Assembly: GCF_003033885.1 (NCBI RefSeq)
Contig: NZ_CP024081.1
Location: 4,838,230 to 4,902,229 of the forward strand
Origin: Pseudomonas rhizophila
GTDB lineage: Bacteria > Pseudomonadota > Gammaproteobacteria > Pseudomonadales > Pseudomonadaceae
DNA length: 64,000 bases
Reading direction: 5' to 3'
The notes under the pieces were generated by a model, which saw nothing but the letters and a program-made list of their open reading frames with translations, did no database searches and was not told the DNA's origin. Of this stretch, positions 1-6,323 are shown piece by piece. How positions within the stretch are numbered: the stretch's first letter is position 1; every line of letters starts with the position of its first letter. A program made the position numbers and the translations under genes.

Positions 1-314
1 TGCTCGCGAAAGCGGTCTGCCAGTCAGCACTTGGTTGGCAGGCAGATCGCCTTCGTGAGCTAATCCATACAGAGAGCTCGACGCACTCCCCGGTGTTTAA
101 GCAACCAATATCTTGTTCAACCTGCTGCTATGCTTAGGTCTTCTCGAAAAGAGTCGAAGCGACTTTCAAGTCAAAACTATTAGCGCTAAATTAACCCCAT
201 CAACACCGCTAATGCTAACTATGAATAGCCTTTCGGCTAAACCCGGCAAAGTTAATAATCATATGAGCAAGGCTCGACCAACTTAACGTACGGCCCCGCC
301 AAGGAAAAGCGATC
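1..314. other. Intergenic region upstream of orphan gene
   Basis: No gene is supported here. The first 30 bases look like half of a REP palindrome (GCTCGCGAAAGCGG...). The rest is AT-richer than the core genome further right. An AAGGAAAAG Shine-Dalgarno-like stretch (303-311) precedes the ATG at 315. Confidence 0.5.
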
Positions 315-1256
315 ATGCCACTGAAGGTCAACGGGAAAAGCGTCTCTGATGGCTCCGCCAGTTCTAGTAGTTCAAGCACACCGCCTGCGGGGGAAACAAT
401 CGAACTCTCCGACCTCATTGCCGAGACGGAACCGGCGCTTGTGTCACTCGGAATAACCAGCCCCGCACAGCTAAAAACAGCGGAGTCATTACTAAAAAAT
501 CTACTAGTCACTGACAAATCTTTTGCCTCCGCTAGCGAACTGGCAAAATACTTATTCAGCATCCTCCACTCTCAGGAACCGTTACTACATCAGCAATCCG
601 AGGACATTACCTATAAGCTCATCCTTGAAAGTATCGAGAACGAAAGCTGCCTTTCATCGTTCAAGACGGGCGGGCAAAAAACGGTGTCAATTATTCTACC
701 CCACCCTCGATATTTACTCTCTCAGGCGAAGGATTCGTCGAAGGATAAGGTACTGATCCAACAAGTCAGTGATATGCAAGCGCTTAACAAACTCGGAATT
801 AATGCCCTAAAAACGTCCGGAATATTTACATTCATGGACAAAAAATCATTTATCTCGGAGAAAGTAGAAGGCGCAGAAAACGCTCGAATCCTAGACAACG
901 TTGTGGTAGACAACCTAAGCCTGACGCTCTCACGCTCAACATTGATTACTGCACTAAGGAAGGCCAAAATTTTTGACAAACTTCCTAAGTTGGAGCAGGC
1001 GACCAGCGACCTGGCGAAAATAGCAAAACATTGTGAAAACCACCCAAGATTCTTGAACGATTTGCAATGTCTAGTTCAAGCAAGTACTGGCAACCTCATC
1101 ATACATGATCCATCTGCAACGCTTCCCGACCAACCACAGAACCCAATGCAAGAAAAAGTACAAGCGACCCGTCTGAAAGGTTACGAGAAGAAGCTAACTT
1201 TCTTATTGAGCACGCTCAAGTCGCAGTGCAGAATTTTAGGTGGTGAAAGCCAGTAA
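315..1256 (+). CDS. Hypothetical protein, orphan accessory gene
   Basis: This encodes a 313-residue soluble protein that I do not recognise. The N-terminus has a Ser-rich low-complexity stretch (about residues 15-22, with SSSSSS) followed by a predicted helical body. No signal peptide, membrane segment or catalytic motif is evident. The start is supported by AAGGAAAAG five bases upstream of ATG. Base composition is AT-richer than the core genes after 5.3 kb, which suggests horizontal acquisition. It lies directly upstream of the displaced dusA 5' fragment, so it is outside the small dusA island but probably part of the same variable locus. A cargo or effector role is possible but cannot be argued from sequence. 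Confidence 0.7.
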   Translation: MPLKVNGKSVSDGSASSSSSSTPPAGETIELSDLIAETEPALVSLGITSPAQLKTAESLLKNLLVTDKSFASASELAKYLFSILHSQEPLLHQQSEDITYKLILESIENESCLSSFKTGGQKTVSIILPHPRYLLSQAKDSSKDKVLIQQVSDMQALNKLGINALKTSGIFTFMDKKSFISEKVEGAENARILDNVVVDNLSLTLSRSTLITALRKAKIFDKLPKLEQATSDLAKIAKHCENHPRFLNDLQCLVQASTGNLIIHDPSATLPDQPQNPMQEKVQATRLKGYEKKLTFLLSTLKSQCRILGGESQ

Positions 1257-1580
1257 AATCATAGCGTTAAAGCCTTTCGCCAGCTGGCGATTCTCTTCAG
1301 CTAGCCGAATGTGTGCTCGAAGATGTTGCGCTGTTGATATTTTGGGTTGTCGAACGGCTTGATTCTCCGGCTGAAAATGAACTTTATCCAGCACCTGGGT
1401 ATCACGGGCAGCATCAGGTAGCATTCGCGTGGCATTGCAACAGATGGCATTGCAACAGATGGGACTGCAACAGATGGGACAGATTTATTTAACTCTGGCC
1501 CAACCGATTGGCGCATCCCCATCCTCGCCATCCCATTCCTGTTAAACTGCGCTCCCGTCGCATTCGTCATTTCAGATCTC
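1257..1580. other. Non-coding stretch upstream of the old dusA start
   Basis: There is no convincing gene. The minus strand at 1257-1425 reads as a short Leu/Glu-rich peptide (EENRQL) loosely like the end of an IS3-type OrfA, too weak to call. A three-copy 15-bp tandem repeat lies at 1432-1476, followed by GGGACAGATTTATTTA (1476-1491). The last about 60 bases resemble the promoter region found again in front of the intact dusA at 5328. Confidence 0.45.
1432..1476. repeat. 15-bp tandem repeat, three copies
   Basis: Three adjacent 15-bp units at 1432-1446, 1447-1461 and 1462-1476. The first two are identical (GCATTGCAACAGATG) and the third differs at two positions. A partial fourth GGACAGAT follows. 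Confidence 0.85.
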
Positions 1581-1664
1581 ATGCCCTCACATACAGCATC
1601 ATCCCAAGTCCTCTCCCGCCGGTTCAGCGTTGCGCCGATGATGGATCGAAGCTACTGGAACTAA
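1581..1664 (+). pseudogene. dusA': dusA 5' fragment displaced by island insertion
   Basis: This 27-codon reading frame starts ATG at 1581 and carries SRRFSVAPMMD, the conserved N-terminus of tRNA-dihydrouridine synthase A. It then runs into island sequence (RSYWN) and stops at 1662-1664. The same motif opens the intact dusA at 5328. The DNA at 1611-1645 and 5358-5392 matches at 30 of 35 positions and both copies end in ATGATGGA. This is the pattern left when an element integrates into the 5' end of dusA, a known target of a dedicated integrase family, and supplies a substitute 5' end. It is almost certainly not functional as a protein. Confidence 0.9.
1611..1645. other. Left attachment site (attL-like) of dusA island
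   Basis: This 35-bp imperfect direct repeat matches 5358-5392 at 30 of 35 positions. The shared 3' end ATGATGGA is the likely crossover core, since sequences diverge completely immediately after it. The identification rests on the repeat plus the known use of dusA as an integration site. Confidence 0.75.
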
Positions 1665-1906
1665 AAAACCTTATTTTTCAGTAGCATAGAGACAATTTAA
1701 TCCTTGCTGTAGCAAAAATTAAGCAGGGAATTGGAAATATCCCCTCAGAAGGGCCATTTTTCACGCAAGAGTCTGTCCACCGGATTATTGTCACGGCGCC
1801 GCTCTATGACCTACCAGCAAAAGCATTGTAAATTCGCTATACGTGAGCGCCCTGCCTTACAGTCCATTCGACATCTCGACAGTTACTACCATTGCCCTGC
1901 AACAAC

Positions 1907-4354
1907 TCATTCGTCTACTGCTGGTAAATCTTCGGACTCCCCGGCGGGGCTATAATCGTATCCAGATATCTTTCGTTGGTATTGAATAATAATACTGGTT
2001 ATATCTGGATCACCAACGCGCTCTTCCGCAAGCTTCAACCTATCCATCGCGTCGTCGAATGCAGACATATCTTTAGCTCGCCTAAAAATCTCAACACCGA
2101 CATCACAATATGTGCGCAAAAAATCTTTGTTATCTTTATACCTATCTATAGCGTTAGTTGCATAGGCTCTGGCCTTTTCAAGGATTGCAATTCTATCCTC
2201 TTCTAAAATGCCAGGGGTTCGCTCTGCGCGAGCTAACAAAAGCATGATTTTAAAGCGGTGAACTGGGCCATCTGCTTTAAAATCATTTTCAAAAAGACGA
2301 ATCTCTGTATCTGCCTTCTCAATCTCATTTATATCGATAAGATTGCGAATCAACCTATGGCGCGGAACTCTTTCGCCCGGTGCCTTCGAGATCATTTTTC
2401 GTAGAAGTTTATTCCTCACATGTTTATCTGCAATTCTACCGATTCCTTTTTCATAACCACATAGCTGGCGGATGGTGCGAATTTCAACATCGTAGGTCGG
2501 AACGATGCCATCTATCACACGCTCAAACAGACTTATATACTCCTTAACATCAGGCATTTTATATTGCGCTATTATATCAGTAATTACCGGATGCCTACCT
2601 TTCCAGCCGTAAGTCCCATCCTTACTACTTATAGTAAACTCATGAACAATATCAACCAAATTCTCCAAAGACGCAGTAACTTGGCCAGCGGGAATTCCTA
2701 GTAGCCGCATAACGAGCTGACGATGAACTATGATACCTGAGCTTTCCATTGCAGCGACTAAGCGGTATATTTCTTGATAGTTTTCGTTTAGTGACGCGAA
2801 CTCCCTCAAGACAATATCGTCGAATTTATCCGAAGCAAAAATATTTTTCAAACATACAAACGTGTCTGACTCACATCGTACGGTTAACCTACGCTTTCTC
2901 TCCGATCTTGAAAACCCAGAAAAGCTGTTCTCCACGAGAGGTTTAAGATCTGCGTTCGTGTCTACTAAAGTCAGTAAGTCCTCTACTTCTGTCGGGTCGA
3001 GCCCTTTTAAAATCTTCTGGGAAGCATGTTTAAAAAAATTGGGGGTTTTAACTCTCGGATTCCATAAGTTCCTAGATGAAATCAATAATATTTTCAGACT
3101 CTGAACATTGTCGGCCACCAACAAATCGATTAGCGAGCTAATATCTCCTACATGCTTATGAGCATCATCAACCAACAACACTCCAGTCTTGTTTTTCTCC
3201 TTAAGATAATTAGCAACCGCCCTCCAAGCGGAGGGAAGCAATGTATGCTCTGCTTTATGTTCCCACGCGTAGATGGAAACCTGAGACTTCATGTATAAGA
3301 CTTGCTTGGCCAATGTAGACTTACCTGTCCCACTAGCACCCAGGACGATCGTTATAAACTTCTCATTACTTTCCAACTGAGGCATAAGATGAGCGGAAAG
3401 AGTTCGCCGGAAAGTTAAATTTGCCGCAATGTCGGCATACGAAGCTGGCCAACCATTAAACATAGAGCTAGCATCTTTAATGCTACTAGTAATATCATGC
3501 GCAACATCCCTAGTTACGGGACGCAGCACAGAAAATGCATCAAGCGGGTCATCATTGACCTTATTTGTTAGAGCTTCACTTTTGGTGTTCTTCTGGAGCT
3601 CGACAAAAAAATCGTCAAGACTACCAAATGAAACCCTAACACCTCGCCGCTCATGCAACAGAGCCCGGTTCTCGTCCGGCGTATACAAAATCAAATTTAT
3701 TGTAGCCGGCATATGACTTCTTGCATTGATGTCTAACGACTTAGATATCAAATCTTTAATGTGAGCATCTGCCAATGAATACCCTATAATAACCAAATCA
3801 GTCCCCGCCAAATCCATTTTCAGCGAGTCATACAGGTACTCCCTATACTCCATAGTTAGATCATAGTCATTTTCAGAAATAATGATACGACTATGAACAC
3901 CATCGACCTCGTCTTTCTCTATACTTCCATGCAATTTAAATAACTTAGTAGCTTCAGGAATACGCTGAGTTGTGAAATCAAAATTTGAAGAAATTACTGA
4001 TAGTGGCTGATCGCGCCTAGCATAAGACTGTTCAATCAACGAGTCATAGTTAGTAGTGTAGATGTTTCGCCAACCGTACAGTGGTAAATTCAGTAAACTA
4101 CCCGTTGGCACAAGCTTCTCAAAGGATCTCCTCAACGTCTTTATCATTTCACGACGACAATCTTTCTGCTCAGCCAAGCTCGCAACTTCGCTCAGCGAAT
4201 ATCCATAGGAATCTATGTCGAACCGTTCTGAGAGGCGATCAATTAAAAGCTTTACAGATGGTGCGCCGGAAGGAAGCGACGAGCCCGCTCCGAAAAAAAG
4301 GACTGTGTTTTCTGGCTTTATTCTTCTGGCCAGTTCGGCTAACGGGATGCTCAT
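1907..4354 (-). CDS. SIR2-STAND NTPase, Avs5-like anti-phage protein
   Basis: An 815-residue multidomain protein. Residues 10-250 form a SIR2-like NAD-binding domain: GAGSS at 22-26, TTNYD with Asn102 and Asp104, LHG with His142, and GYS at 191-193, so the residues expected for NADase activity are present. A P-loop STAND-type NTPase follows: Walker A GASGTGKST at 339-347 and Walker B GVLLVDDAH at 391-399. The C-terminal 300 residues are helical, perhaps a TPR-like sensor. This order matches single-gene SIR2-STAND (AVAST type 5) defence proteins, which sense phage and deplete NAD. Specific phage triggers cannot be inferred. An upstream GTG at 4357 is possible, but AAGGA lies only 3 bases from it and 6 from the ATG at 4354, so ATG is preferred. 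Confidence 0.85.
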   Translation of the reverse strand: MSIPLAELARRIKPENTVLFFGAGSSLPSGAPSVKLLIDRLSERFDIDSYGYSLSEVASLAEQKDCRREMIKTLRRSFEKLVPTGSLLNLPLYGWRNIYTTNYDSLIEQSYARRDQPLSVISSNFDFTTQRIPEATKLFKLHGSIEKDEVDGVHSRIIISENDYDLTMEYREYLYDSLKMDLAGTDLVIIGYSLADAHIKDLISKSLDINARSHMPATINLILYTPDENRALLHERRGVRVSFGSLDDFFVELQKNTKSEALTNKVNDDPLDAFSVLRPVTRDVAHDITSSIKDASSMFNGWPASYADIAANLTFRRTLSAHLMPQLESNEKFITIVLGASGTGKSTLAKQVLYMKSQVSIYAWEHKAEHTLLPSAWRAVANYLKEKNKTGVLLVDDAHKHVGDISSLIDLLVADNVQSLKILLISSRNLWNPRVKTPNFFKHASQKILKGLDPTEVEDLLTLVDTNADLKPLVENSFSGFSRSERKRRLTVRCESDTFVCLKNIFASDKFDDIVLREFASLNENYQEIYRLVAAMESSGIIVHRQLVMRLLGIPAGQVTASLENLVDIVHEFTISSKDGTYGWKGRHPVITDIIAQYKMPDVKEYISLFERVIDGIVPTYDVEIRTIRQLCGYEKGIGRIADKHVRNKLLRKMISKAPGERVPRHRLIRNLIDINEIEKADTEIRLFENDFKADGPVHRFKIMLLLARAERTPGILEEDRIAILEKARAYATNAIDRYKDNKDFLRTYCDVGVEIFRRAKDMSAFDDAMDRLKLAEERVGDPDITSIIIQYQRKISGYDYSPAGESEDLPAVDE

Positions 4355-4770
4355 CACAAATCCTTATGCGTTTGTAATAGCAATTTAATACCGCTTACCG
4401 TAGCTGCTGTCTACCCGGTTGGGAACGGAATGAAGAAAAGTCTAGAAATGACAGCGTATGGCGACATCGGCCTTACAGCCCACGGAAATAACGGTTAGAC
4501 GCGGGTTCAACCCCCCATATCCAAAAAATAAGCTATAAAAATCATGCAATTAGCGTTTATTTCAAGTGCTTTTTTTGCCTGAATGAGTGGTTTTGGCTCG
4601 GTTATACCAGCTTTAGGACAGCCTGCCTGCCCGCGAAGCCCATCCGTGGCTGTCGCTTTTACCTCAACAATCGACAACACGTTTTTCGTCGCTTTTCCGG
4701 TTTGAAAACGCGCCAAAACGATCTGTCTGGGGTATTAAATCTGTGTCGGCTTACACACAGAGGCCCATAC
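4355..4770. other. Island intergenic region with tmRNA-end-like sequence
   Basis: There is no supported gene in this 416-bp gap between the divergent SIR2 and AlpA genes. It should contain both promoters. GACGCGGGTTCAAC at 4498-4511 equals part of the conserved 3' end of tmRNA (ssrA), but the T-stem is then broken (CCCCCC in place of TCCCGC) and no upstream RNA folds with it. It may be an old attachment-site remnant. Confidence 0.4.
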
Positions 4771-5019
4771 ATGCCGACACATACCCCCAAGAAATACTTG
4801 ATCAGTCATATCTCTCTGCAGCACCGCTTTGATAAAAGCCGCTCCGGCCTTGAAAAGCTGCTCAAAACCGATCCCAGCTTCCCTCGCCCCATCAAGTTTG
4901 GCTTGAGCAAACAGGCTGGCGTTTACTTCCTCGTCGCGGAGGTGGAAGCCTGGTTGGAGAGCAAGATCAGCGAACGCGATAGCGTCGTTCAGGATCTCTC
5001 CAAAAGAGACAAGCAATGA
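4771..5019 (+). CDS. AlpA-family DNA-binding regulator
   Basis: An 82-residue protein of the AlpA/excisionase-like winged helix-turn-helix family. The pattern is an N-terminal YLISH helix, a recognition region followed by FPRPIKFG (about residues 36-43), and the terminal VAEVEAWLESKI (about 56-67), the classic AlpA ending. AlpA proteins activate integrase or excision genes in P4-like and satellite islands, for example CP4-57 in E. coli. Here no integrase accompanies it, so its target is missing or elsewhere; it may instead regulate the SIR2 gene next door. ATG at 4771 is chosen because the conserved domain begins just after it; the preceding AGAGG is a modest ribosome binding site. Confidence 0.8.
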   Translation: MPTHTPKKYLISHISLQHRFDKSRSGLEKLLKTDPSFPRPIKFGLSKQAGVYFLVAEVEAWLESKISERDSVVQDLSKRDKQ

Positions 5020-5084
5020 CCACATGCGAGCAGACACTGCCGTTCTTGGCAGAGATGCGCGAACCGGACGTGCCTCATATCTGA
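5016..5084 (+). CDS. 22-residue overlapping ORF, possible remnant
   Basis: An ATG at 5016 overlaps the stop of the AlpA gene (ATGA) and opens a 22-codon frame ending at 5084. The overlap is typical of translational coupling, so this is probably the start of a gene truncated by deletion rather than a functional peptide. No family can be recognised. Confidence 0.3.
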   Translation: MTTCEQTLPFLAEMREPDVPHI

Positions 5085-5327
5085 GCCCAGGAGTTGCGCC
5101 AAAGCCGCTCCCATGCAAGAAAAAGGGGGACAGATCTATTTACCGGCCGGCCCTCCGACTGCGTGCAATCCCAACATAGCAACCAGCGCCCTAAGACTCC
5201 CGATTAGAACTGGGAATCTCTGACCCTGCCGGGAGATTCAACTCTCTCACCAATCTAGCCCGCCAGCCTTACCCTATCCCATTCCTGATAAACTCCCCGT
5301 CTCTGCCCTACCCATTCAGATTCCCCA
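5085..5327. other. Island right end with substitute dusA promoter region
   Basis: No gene is seen. The GGGACAGATCTATTTA-like stretch at 5127-5142 echoes the GGGACAGATTTATTTA upstream of the displaced dusA start (1476-1491). CATCCCATTCCTG(T/A)TAAACT-like sequence occurs before both starts (1528 onward and 5274 onward). The island therefore carries its own version of the dusA upstream region. Confidence 0.55.
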
Positions 5328-6323
5328 ATGCCCTTAATCACAACCGCCCCCCAATCACTGTCCCGCCGCTTCAGCGTGGCCCCCATGATGGACTGGACTG
5401 ACCCCCACTGCAGGTTCTTCCTACGCATCCTCTCCAAACACGCCCTGCTCTACACCGAGATGGTCACCACTGGCGCGTTGCTCAACGGCGATCACGAGCG
5501 TTTCCTGCGCCACCACGAAGCCGAGCATCCCCTGGCGCTTCAACTCGGCGGTAGCGTCCCGGCCGATTTGGCTGCGTGCGCGCGGATGGCTCAGGAGCAT
5601 GGCTATGATGAGGTCAATCTCAACGTCGGCTGCCCAAGCGATCGCGTGCAGAACAACATGATCGGTGCATGTCTGATGGGGCATCCTGAGCTGGTGGCCG
5701 ATTGTGTGAAGGCGATGCGTGATGCTGTGTCGATTCCGGTGACGGTCAAGCATCGGATCGGGATCAATGGGCGGGACAGTTACGAGCAGTTGTGTGAGTT
5801 CGTCGGGACGGTGCGTGACGCCGGTTGTACGAGTTTTACCGTGCATGCGCGGATTGCGATTCTGGAAGGGCTGTCGCCCAAGGAGAACCGTGAGATCCCG
5901 CCGCTGCGGTATGACGTGGCGGCACAGCTGAAGAAGGATTTCCCGGAGCTGGAGATTGTGCTAAACGGCGGGATCAAGACGCTGGAAGCCTGCCACGAGC
6001 ATTTGCAGACATTCGACGGTGTGATGCTGGGGCGCGAGGCGTATCACAACCCGTATCTGCTGGCCGAGGTGGATCAACAACTGTTTGGCAGCAGCGCGCC
6101 TGTCATCAGTCGGGCTGAGGCGTTGGCGCAGTTGCGGCCTTATATCGCCAAGCACCTGGACGCCGGCGGGGCGATGCATCACATCACTCGCCATGTACTG
6201 GGGCTGGGTACCGGGTTTCCTGGGGCGCGCCGTTTTCGGCAGTTGTTGTCGGTGGACATCCACAAAACCAAAGACCCGTTGGCGCTGCTGGATCAGGCGG
6301 CGGGCATGCTGGAAGGACGCTAA
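5328..6323 (+). CDS. dusA: tRNA-dihydrouridine synthase A (U20/U20a)
   Basis: A 331-residue FMN- and NADPH-dependent enzyme that reduces uridine 20/20a in the D-loop of tRNAs. The TIM barrel starts with SRRFSVAPMMDWTD (residues 12-24). The catalytic cysteine lies in NVGCPS (Cys102), and KHRIGI and the GGI / GVMLGREAYHNP phosphate-binding segments follow. Length is normal for DusA. The first about 20 codons and the promoter derive from the inserted island, because the original 5' end remains at 1581; the protein is nevertheless complete. The downstream neighbour is transaldolase. Confidence 0.97.
   Translation: MPLITTAPQSLSRRFSVAPMMDWTDPHCRFFLRILSKHALLYTEMVTTGALLNGDHERFLRHHEAEHPLALQLGGSVPADLAACARMAQEHGYDEVNLNVGCPSDRVQNNMIGACLMGHPELVADCVKAMRDAVSIPVTVKHRIGINGRDSYEQLCEFVGTVRDAGCTSFTVHARIAILEGLSPKENREIPPLRYDVAAQLKKDFPELEIVLNGGIKTLEACHEHLQTFDGVMLGREAYHNPYLLAEVDQQLFGSSAPVISRAEALAQLRPYIAKHLDAGGAMHHITRHVLGLGTGFPGARRFRQLLSVDIHKTKDPLALLDQAAGMLEGR
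5358..5392. other. Right attachment site (attR-like) inside dusA
   Basis: This 35-bp partner of 1611-1645 lies in codons 11-22 of the intact dusA. It encodes the conserved LSRRFSVAPMMD motif, so recombination here preserves the protein sequence. Identity is 30 of 35 with ATGATGGA at the 3' end. Confidence 0.75.

Follow-up and report, generated by a model that had tools for sequence, protein, structure and literature searches.

CP4-57 is an AlpA-encoding island integrated at the tmRNA gene, where this target is combined with a tyrosine integrase and phage-defense cargo. A tmRNA target, AlpA, a tyrosine integrase, and cargo for phage defense are likewise shared between the I23, I44, and I55 islands and the islands of the type found here, as far as the available portion of PMC12595487 describes them. 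In I23, I44, and I55, intY is close to the 5′ end, whereas alpA occupies the 3′ end. A second class of islands inserts into the 5′ end of dusA between imperfect direct repeats, both of which are also seen at the locus analyzed here, and an integrase is common to all dusA islands described in the available part of that report (Farrugia 2015, PMC4482086). Among defense proteins, Avs5 is, according to the accessible text of PMC12931631, a Sir2-STAND protein that lowers NAD+; it responds to an early phage protein as its activator and depends on residues of the Walker A motif and of Sir2.

Here we examine a 64,000-nucleotide stretch of Pseudomonas rhizophila DNA (the window), which corresponds to positions 4838230-4902229 of a 5.95 Mb genome that consists of one contig. 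With a probability of roughly 0.78, we read positions 1581 to about 5112 (3.5 kb) as the left end of a dead, dusA-integrated defense island in which a SIR2-STAND gene persists as intact cargo.

Layout of the locus and its dusA ends

The dusA core TTCAGCGTNGCNCCNATGATGGA, sought in the window with up to 3 mismatches accepted and with shuffled sequences as the baseline, is present in two copies (Table 1), compared with a mean of 0.01 in the shuffles. These are the only exact copies in the entire genome, which has two additional places that match with 3 mismatches. An initial annotation of the window took the dusA repeats as the bounds of an island, and both cores are indeed present. However, the island part ends near 5112 and not at the right dusA repeat, and positions 5119-5420 are native-type DNA comprising the dusA upstream region and the dusA start.

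Table 1. Features of the dusA locus, with positions given in the window.
Feature	Coordinates	Strand	Basis
Native-type dusA upstream region, left copy, including the GGGACAGATTTATTTA motif	1476-1580	+	Contiguous DNA of relatives
dusA 5′ fragment, ATG at 1581, attachment core at 1623-1645 (attL)	1581-1645	+	
Left arm of dusA-type element; TTGCTGTAGCAAAAATTAAGCAG at 1704-1726, 81 bp from the core start	1646-1808	+	
815-aa SIR2-STAND NTPase protein, putative NADase defense gene	1907-4354	-	PF13289, PF25199
Degenerate relic of a tmRNA 3′ end (presumed old ssrA attachment end)	4498-4528	+	Last 31 nt of the L118 tmRNA and equivalents elsewhere
Conserved head block of AlpA-DUF3987 islands, 615 bp	4498-5112	+	78-87% identity to relatives
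82-aa AlpA-like regulator	4771-5019	+	PF05930, E 0.046, below cut-off
5′ remnant of DUF3987 gene, frameshifted and cut off	5016-5113	+	tblastn pieces in two frames
Native-type dusA upstream region, right copy	5119-5327	+	Match to G035
Intact dusA, core at 5370-5392	5328-6323	+	PF01207, 6.6e-88

At the left end, the dusA upstream region and start (from about 1467, 1476, or 1478 to 1645, 1646, or 1656) are contiguous in four relatives at 71-80% identity. To the right of the core, a survey of window positions 1-5420 against 398 genomes of the genus, its own included, revealed matches in G391 (to 1808), G331 (to 1779), and G204 (to 1778); at most two candidates were scored per genome, and counts from this survey are therefore lower bounds. 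An alignment of the four sequences contains the common stretch TTGCTGTAGCAAAAATTAAGCAG; in G331 and G204, within the stretches examined, the arm is not accompanied by the AlpA block discussed below. The same 23-mer occurs exactly in three IMG/VR contigs. In two of these the dusA core precedes it by 81 bp, which is also the spacing in the window, whereas the third contains a similar sequence outside the accepted core pattern. A search for the left arm among phage records found none. Because the core and arm are common to three other dusA-type ends, we read the left end as a genuine attL, that is, a true dusA-type attachment end, and it seems reasonable to view the TTGCTGTAGCAAAAATTAAGCAG stretch as an integrase arm site.

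Farther to the left, positions 315-1256 hold a gene for a 313-aa protein with no Pfam family over cut-off. Its single homologue in the protein database (97%) is itself tagged PF26324.

When the dusA starts of 20 relatives were classed by eye, 7 proved to be native-type, 11 island-type, and 2 unclear. The right dusA copy of the window is native-type by the same inspection, and an element-type right end is absent. Among the matches listed for the 398 genomes, only G035 aligns with the right upstream copy at full length (91% identity over 5119-5420), and this genome also has the closest DusA (97%) of 56 relatives searched. In G035, a stretch resembling window positions 1469-1531 (86%) is on one contig and the right copy is on another (C251 and C56; loci L059 and L151). 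The contig ends that face the place upstream of dusA carry other genes, which by eye are TetR-like, FAD oxidoreductase-like, and methyltransferase-like. This split, together with these other genes, indicates that the history of the site is longer than one insertion. The motif GGGACAGATYTATTTA is located upstream of both dusA copies (1476-1491 and 5127-5142), and a 15-base form of it occurs four times in the genome. Recombination at this motif may have provided dusA with its native-type start.

As the initial annotation had stated, there is no integrase between the dusA repeats, either among the open reading frames (ORFs) or by Phage_integrase profile search. The genome has eight Phage_integrase matches, of which the nearest lies at a distance of about 41 kb from the interval and does not reach the cut-off.

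The AlpA block and its relatives at tmRNA and dusA

The block that includes the AlpA-like gene, or at least 430 bp of it, is present in at least 17 of the 397 other genomes of the genus, and its right edge falls at 5112 or 5115 in most relatives. Nineteen such places were listed and 18 were retrieved as loci (L116-L133), with shorter matches in further genomes set aside. A complete tmRNA ends at the left edge of the block in 10 of these 18 loci, and a tmRNA 3′ end is present in 12. A DUF3987 protein adjoins the block in 14 loci, aligned by tblastn over 500-501 of 501 residues (frames not individually confirmed open), and the match is partial or broken in four (L120, L130, L132, and L133). An apparent stop codon is located early in the DUF3987 gene of L127. 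The family is PF13148 (1.6e-88 in G391).

In the window, only about 98 bp of the DUF3987 gene is left, cut after about residue 33. Two tblastn pieces, 5016-5066 and 5075-5113, are in different frames (E 0.001), and the frameshift is also visible in a three-frame translation. Both this truncated start and the tmRNA 3′-end relic escaped the initial annotation. These comparisons suggest that the AlpA block is the head of another kind of island, the AlpA-DUF3987 islands, which reside mostly at the tmRNA gene. We found no literature joining AlpA, ssrA, and DUF3987.

Four of the tmRNA islands (L121, L125, L128, and L129) have 1.0-2.6 kb of extra DNA between the tmRNA-end part (4498-4622) and the AlpA part. 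The head of AlpA-DUF3987 islands therefore seems to be a cargo site.

The window was initially thought to hold two real genes in this interval. The 815-aa SIR2-STAND gene stands, with domain matches over cut-offs, but the small gene is weakly AlpA-like, with a PF05930 match of 14 bits against a cut-off of 21. It also has a weak match to phrog_66, 'excisionase and transcriptional regulator' (E 0.035), and its 82-aa product is 87% identical to the counterpart in L118 and 82% identical to that in L120. Its ORF is intact, with dN/dS values of 0.10-0.28 against 13 relatives, and the median among the relatives is 0.15 (75 pairs). By this measure the ORF appears to be still constrained, perhaps in a slightly relaxed manner.

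Only one of the 18 block loci, that of G391, also carries a dusA attL with its arm, and about 35 bp separate this arm from the AlpA block. AlpA is followed there by DUF3987, a pair of UvrD-like and OLD-like genes (which we take to be Gabija-like), a GmrSD_N and AAA pair, a resolvase, and two small genes. A 419-aa tyrosine integrase comes next, and beyond it is another copy of the core, at a distance of 16.4 kb from the first. Beyond the second core the genes are phage-like by eye, and an intact dusA was not reached within the 60 kb read. The integrase of G391 is 59-73% identical to ORFs of at least 120 aa beside dusA in 9 of 20 dusA loci of relatives. By its position it fits the dusA integrase family described in the accessible part of PMC4482086.

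When the P. rhizophila genome was searched with the G391 integrase, no match was obtained in a run that lacked a positive control, for which the relatives found by blastp with the same query at 9 of 20 loci serve as a partial control. Among ORFs of at least 120 aa at the eight Phage_integrase loci, the best match is 42% over 43 residues (E 4e-4). A resident dusA integrase acting in trans was rejected on these grounds.

L123 is a tmRNA island that has tmRNA ends at both sides and the same AlpA and DUF3987 as G391, and its two small tail genes are 76% and 77% identical to those of G391. Its integrase, which is placed distally in the island and matches PF00589 and Arm-DNA-bind_2, is unrelated to that of G391 (best aligned piece of 30 residues, E 6e-4). 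Furthermore, a near-identical head is present at tmRNA in L118 and at dusA in G391 (contig C31; L116 and L136), with DUF3987 proteins that are 97% identical. Judging from G391, L123, and the window, one island chassis appears to be associated with two integrases that are unrelated to each other, one at tmRNA and the other at dusA, and this point looks new. The L118, G391, and L123 islands have the appearance of a naturally occurring switch of target brought about by replacement of the integrase, which may matter more than the relic itself. One could go further and speculate, though we consider it quite improbable, that the chassis (AlpA, DUF3987, and a lipoprotein-like gene plus a 'MEFRHLGNG' gene) moves between sites by trading a complete tmRNA-type module of integrase and attachment site for a dusA-type one, and that, through a retained attL (core and arm), any incoming dusA element could recapture truncated derivatives such as the SIR2 cassette.

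The SIR2-STAND protein and its distribution

All 815 codons are open from the ATG at 4354. The protein matches SIR2_2 (PF13289; 5e-25, 88.7 bits against a cut-off of 24.5) and nSTAND_NTPase5 (PF25199; 3.6e-12, over cut-off), and its nSTAND3 match is below cut-off (E 0.0037, 17.4 against 27.2 bits). The NAD site of the SIR2 protein is intact on alignment, with GAGSS at 22-26, TTNYD at 100-104, and HG at 142-143. In an alignment of 36 sequences, made of the window protein and 35 chosen from 120 homologues listed, T100, T101, N102, Y103, D104, H142, and G143 are invariant, as are G339, G342, G344, K345, and T347 of the P-loop GASGTGKS. Residues G22, G24, S25, and S26 of GAGSS are conserved at 90% or more. 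SIR2 and STAND domains are combined in all 36 sequences, with nSTAND5 and nSTAND3 both matching at E≤0.01 in every case, and no C-terminal repeat family is among the 25 of 34 Pfam families listed for the homologues.

A sequence search against solved structures returned 14 distinct sequences, including KomC, DSR2, and ThsA, and the matches listed are all in the SIR2 part, within about residues 6-242 of the query. In a chain named KomC(H146N), the altered position is the one that corresponds to H142 in the alignment. Another match (9v0g, E 1.6e-9) is named as an NAD-dependent protein deacetylase, and therefore the SIR2 chemistry is not fixed by homology alone. No model named for Avs5 is among the PADLOC matches listed for the window (25 of 30), from a library that may or may not include one, or among the PADLOC families listed for the 36 homologues (25 of 43) and for four distant plasmid relatives. 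Given its domains and motifs, the intact 815-aa gene is probably a defense gene that acts against viruses as an NADase.

The family has 345 homologues at E≤0.001 among 8000 candidates scored, and named homologues among the 120 listed include those at 84% (Pseudomonas sp.), 80% (P. syringae), and 72% (P. aeruginosa). The SIR2-STAND gene is nonetheless rare in the surveyed genomes and patchy, being found in 1 of 398 genomes of the genus (E≤1e-60) and in 1 of 369 genomes in a survey of the class (E≤1e-40), in each case its own. Spread of the exact gene by phages or plasmids was considered and rejected, with 0 occurrences in 50,697 phage records and no confirmed viral contig. Plasmid relatives of the protein are all below 60% identity, and the best of these (49%), from P. 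savastanoi NC_007274.1 (L142), is annotated as two ORFs and adjoins a tyrosine recombinase. In P. aegrilactucae (L016), the SIR2 homologue adjoins genes that are phage-like by translation. An AlpA of the window type was not found at the three SIR2 homologue loci L016, L017, and L142, and in the genomes of L016 and L017 the contigs with PF05930 matches differ in length from those of these loci.

Competing explanations, history, and relation to known systems

The initial annotation envisaged a minimal satellite mobilized by a resident dusA element. If such a satellite were functional, a dusA integrase supplied in trans would act on attL and the core in dusA, and AlpA would serve as the directionality factor. 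The intact core and arm, whose 81-bp spacing recurs in two viral contigs, the presence of the core in dusA, and the intact AlpA-like ORF all speak for a functional two-gene satellite of this kind. However, the island is cut inside a broken DUF3987 gene, there is no element-type right end, the genome search revealed no relative of the dusA integrase beyond the weak match noted above, and with the SIR2 gene confined to its own genome the pair is not seen spreading in the genus sample. We therefore abandon the satellite proposal as very unlikely. The same annotation had AlpA controlling the defense gene. A working regulatory pair would agree with the divergent orientation of the two genes, whose starts (4354 and 4771) are separated by 416 bp, and with their intact ORFs, but at least 17 other genomes have the AlpA block and yielded no match to the SIR2 gene (E≤1e-60), and in G391 the block is next to the arm. 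Relatives at unrelated loci without AlpA, which had been held to bear on the proposal as a whole, were seen at the three SIR2 homologue loci; they go against the pairing, which we judge highly improbable, and leave the defense reading untouched.

It might also be asked whether the protein is a metabolic or inactive sirtuin rather than a defense factor, as would be consistent with the lack of a named Avs5 match among the library matches listed and with the one solved relative named as a deacetylase. Against this, its other solved relatives include KomC, DSR2, and ThsA, SIR2 and STAND domains go together in every homologue aligned, and the distribution is patchy, and so we regard a sirtuin as extremely unlikely. 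A further alternative concerns history and not function: the SIR2 gene could have entered an already dead relic separately and never travelled with the island. The short distance between arm and AlpA block in G391 favors such an entry, as does the GC content of 0.42 for the SIR2 gene versus 0.51 for the block. Nothing direct argues against it, although the extra head DNA in four tmRNA islands indicates that extra genes at this position are not unusual. We consider separate entry possible but on balance unlikely.

Our preferred reading remains that of an island end with surviving cargo. With DUF3987 cut, no integrase present, and no element end on the right, the copy in the window has probably lost its mobility and represents a right-truncated relic. 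Its ancestor was probably an AlpA-DUF3987 island, with a chassis usually at the tmRNA gene, that came to have dusA attachment ends; as in G391, a dusA-type integrase was presumably encoded at the right end. All that lay to the right of about codon 33 of DUF3987, the integrase and attR with it, is missing; judged from the fuller relative G391, the losses probably comprised DUF3987, other cargo, and the dusA-type integrase. With the integrase and attR gone, the piece would therefore be fixed in the chromosome. The SIR2-STAND gene would represent cargo, flanked by the attL arm on one side and by the tmRNA relic on the other, and AlpA would be a leftover island regulator and not a regulator of the SIR2 gene. 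This whole-element model is drawn mainly from one relative, G391. Moreover, the native-type 5′ end of dusA beside the relic argues against a simple history: a simple deletion inside an integrated element is therefore insufficient, and further recombination or another order of events is needed. The dN/dS values of the AlpA ORF, which is not plainly decaying, likewise count against the relic reading.

By analogy with its family, the STAND part would keep the protein inactive until a phage product binds the C-terminal part. This binding might lead to NTP-dependent assembly and thereby switch on the SIR2 NADase, such that loss of NAD+ would stop the infection. The locus suggests that a defense gene can remain as a stable chromosomal gene after the death of its carrier, and it cautions that what is taken for 'integrase-free minimal islands' may consist of truncated ends. 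The SIR2-STAND homologues also provide a ready test set for which sensor part decides phage specificity.

With Avs5, as presented in the accessible portion of PMC12931631, the window protein shares an N-terminal PF13289 domain, a central STAND NTPase, and GAGxS and TTNxD at similar positions, and Avs5 is present in Pseudomonas. Because the layout and residues are the same, an Avs5-like mode is our best guess, and the window protein probably works like Avs5-type NADases. Nevertheless, nSTAND3 is named for the tested PaAvs5 in that text, whereas the window protein passes nSTAND5 with nSTAND3 below cut-off; its HG replaces the NG of PaAvs5-1; and it has no C-terminal repeat family among the families listed. 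Given the different rank of the nSTAND models and a C-terminal part without a family, we treat the protein as a candidate member of Avs5 only. ThsA, DSR2, and KomC align with the window protein through the SIR2 domain alone, and no SLOG-type family is among its Pfam matches.

A relic with an intact, probable defense gene is an already known kind of find. The locus differs from the dusA islands in the available part of PMC4482086 in that it has no integrase and no element-type right end replacing the dusA start. Compared with I23, I44, and I55 as described in the accessible portion of PMC12595487, AlpA is here at the tmRNA-proximal end and is followed by DUF3987, and the integrase, as seen in L123, is distal.
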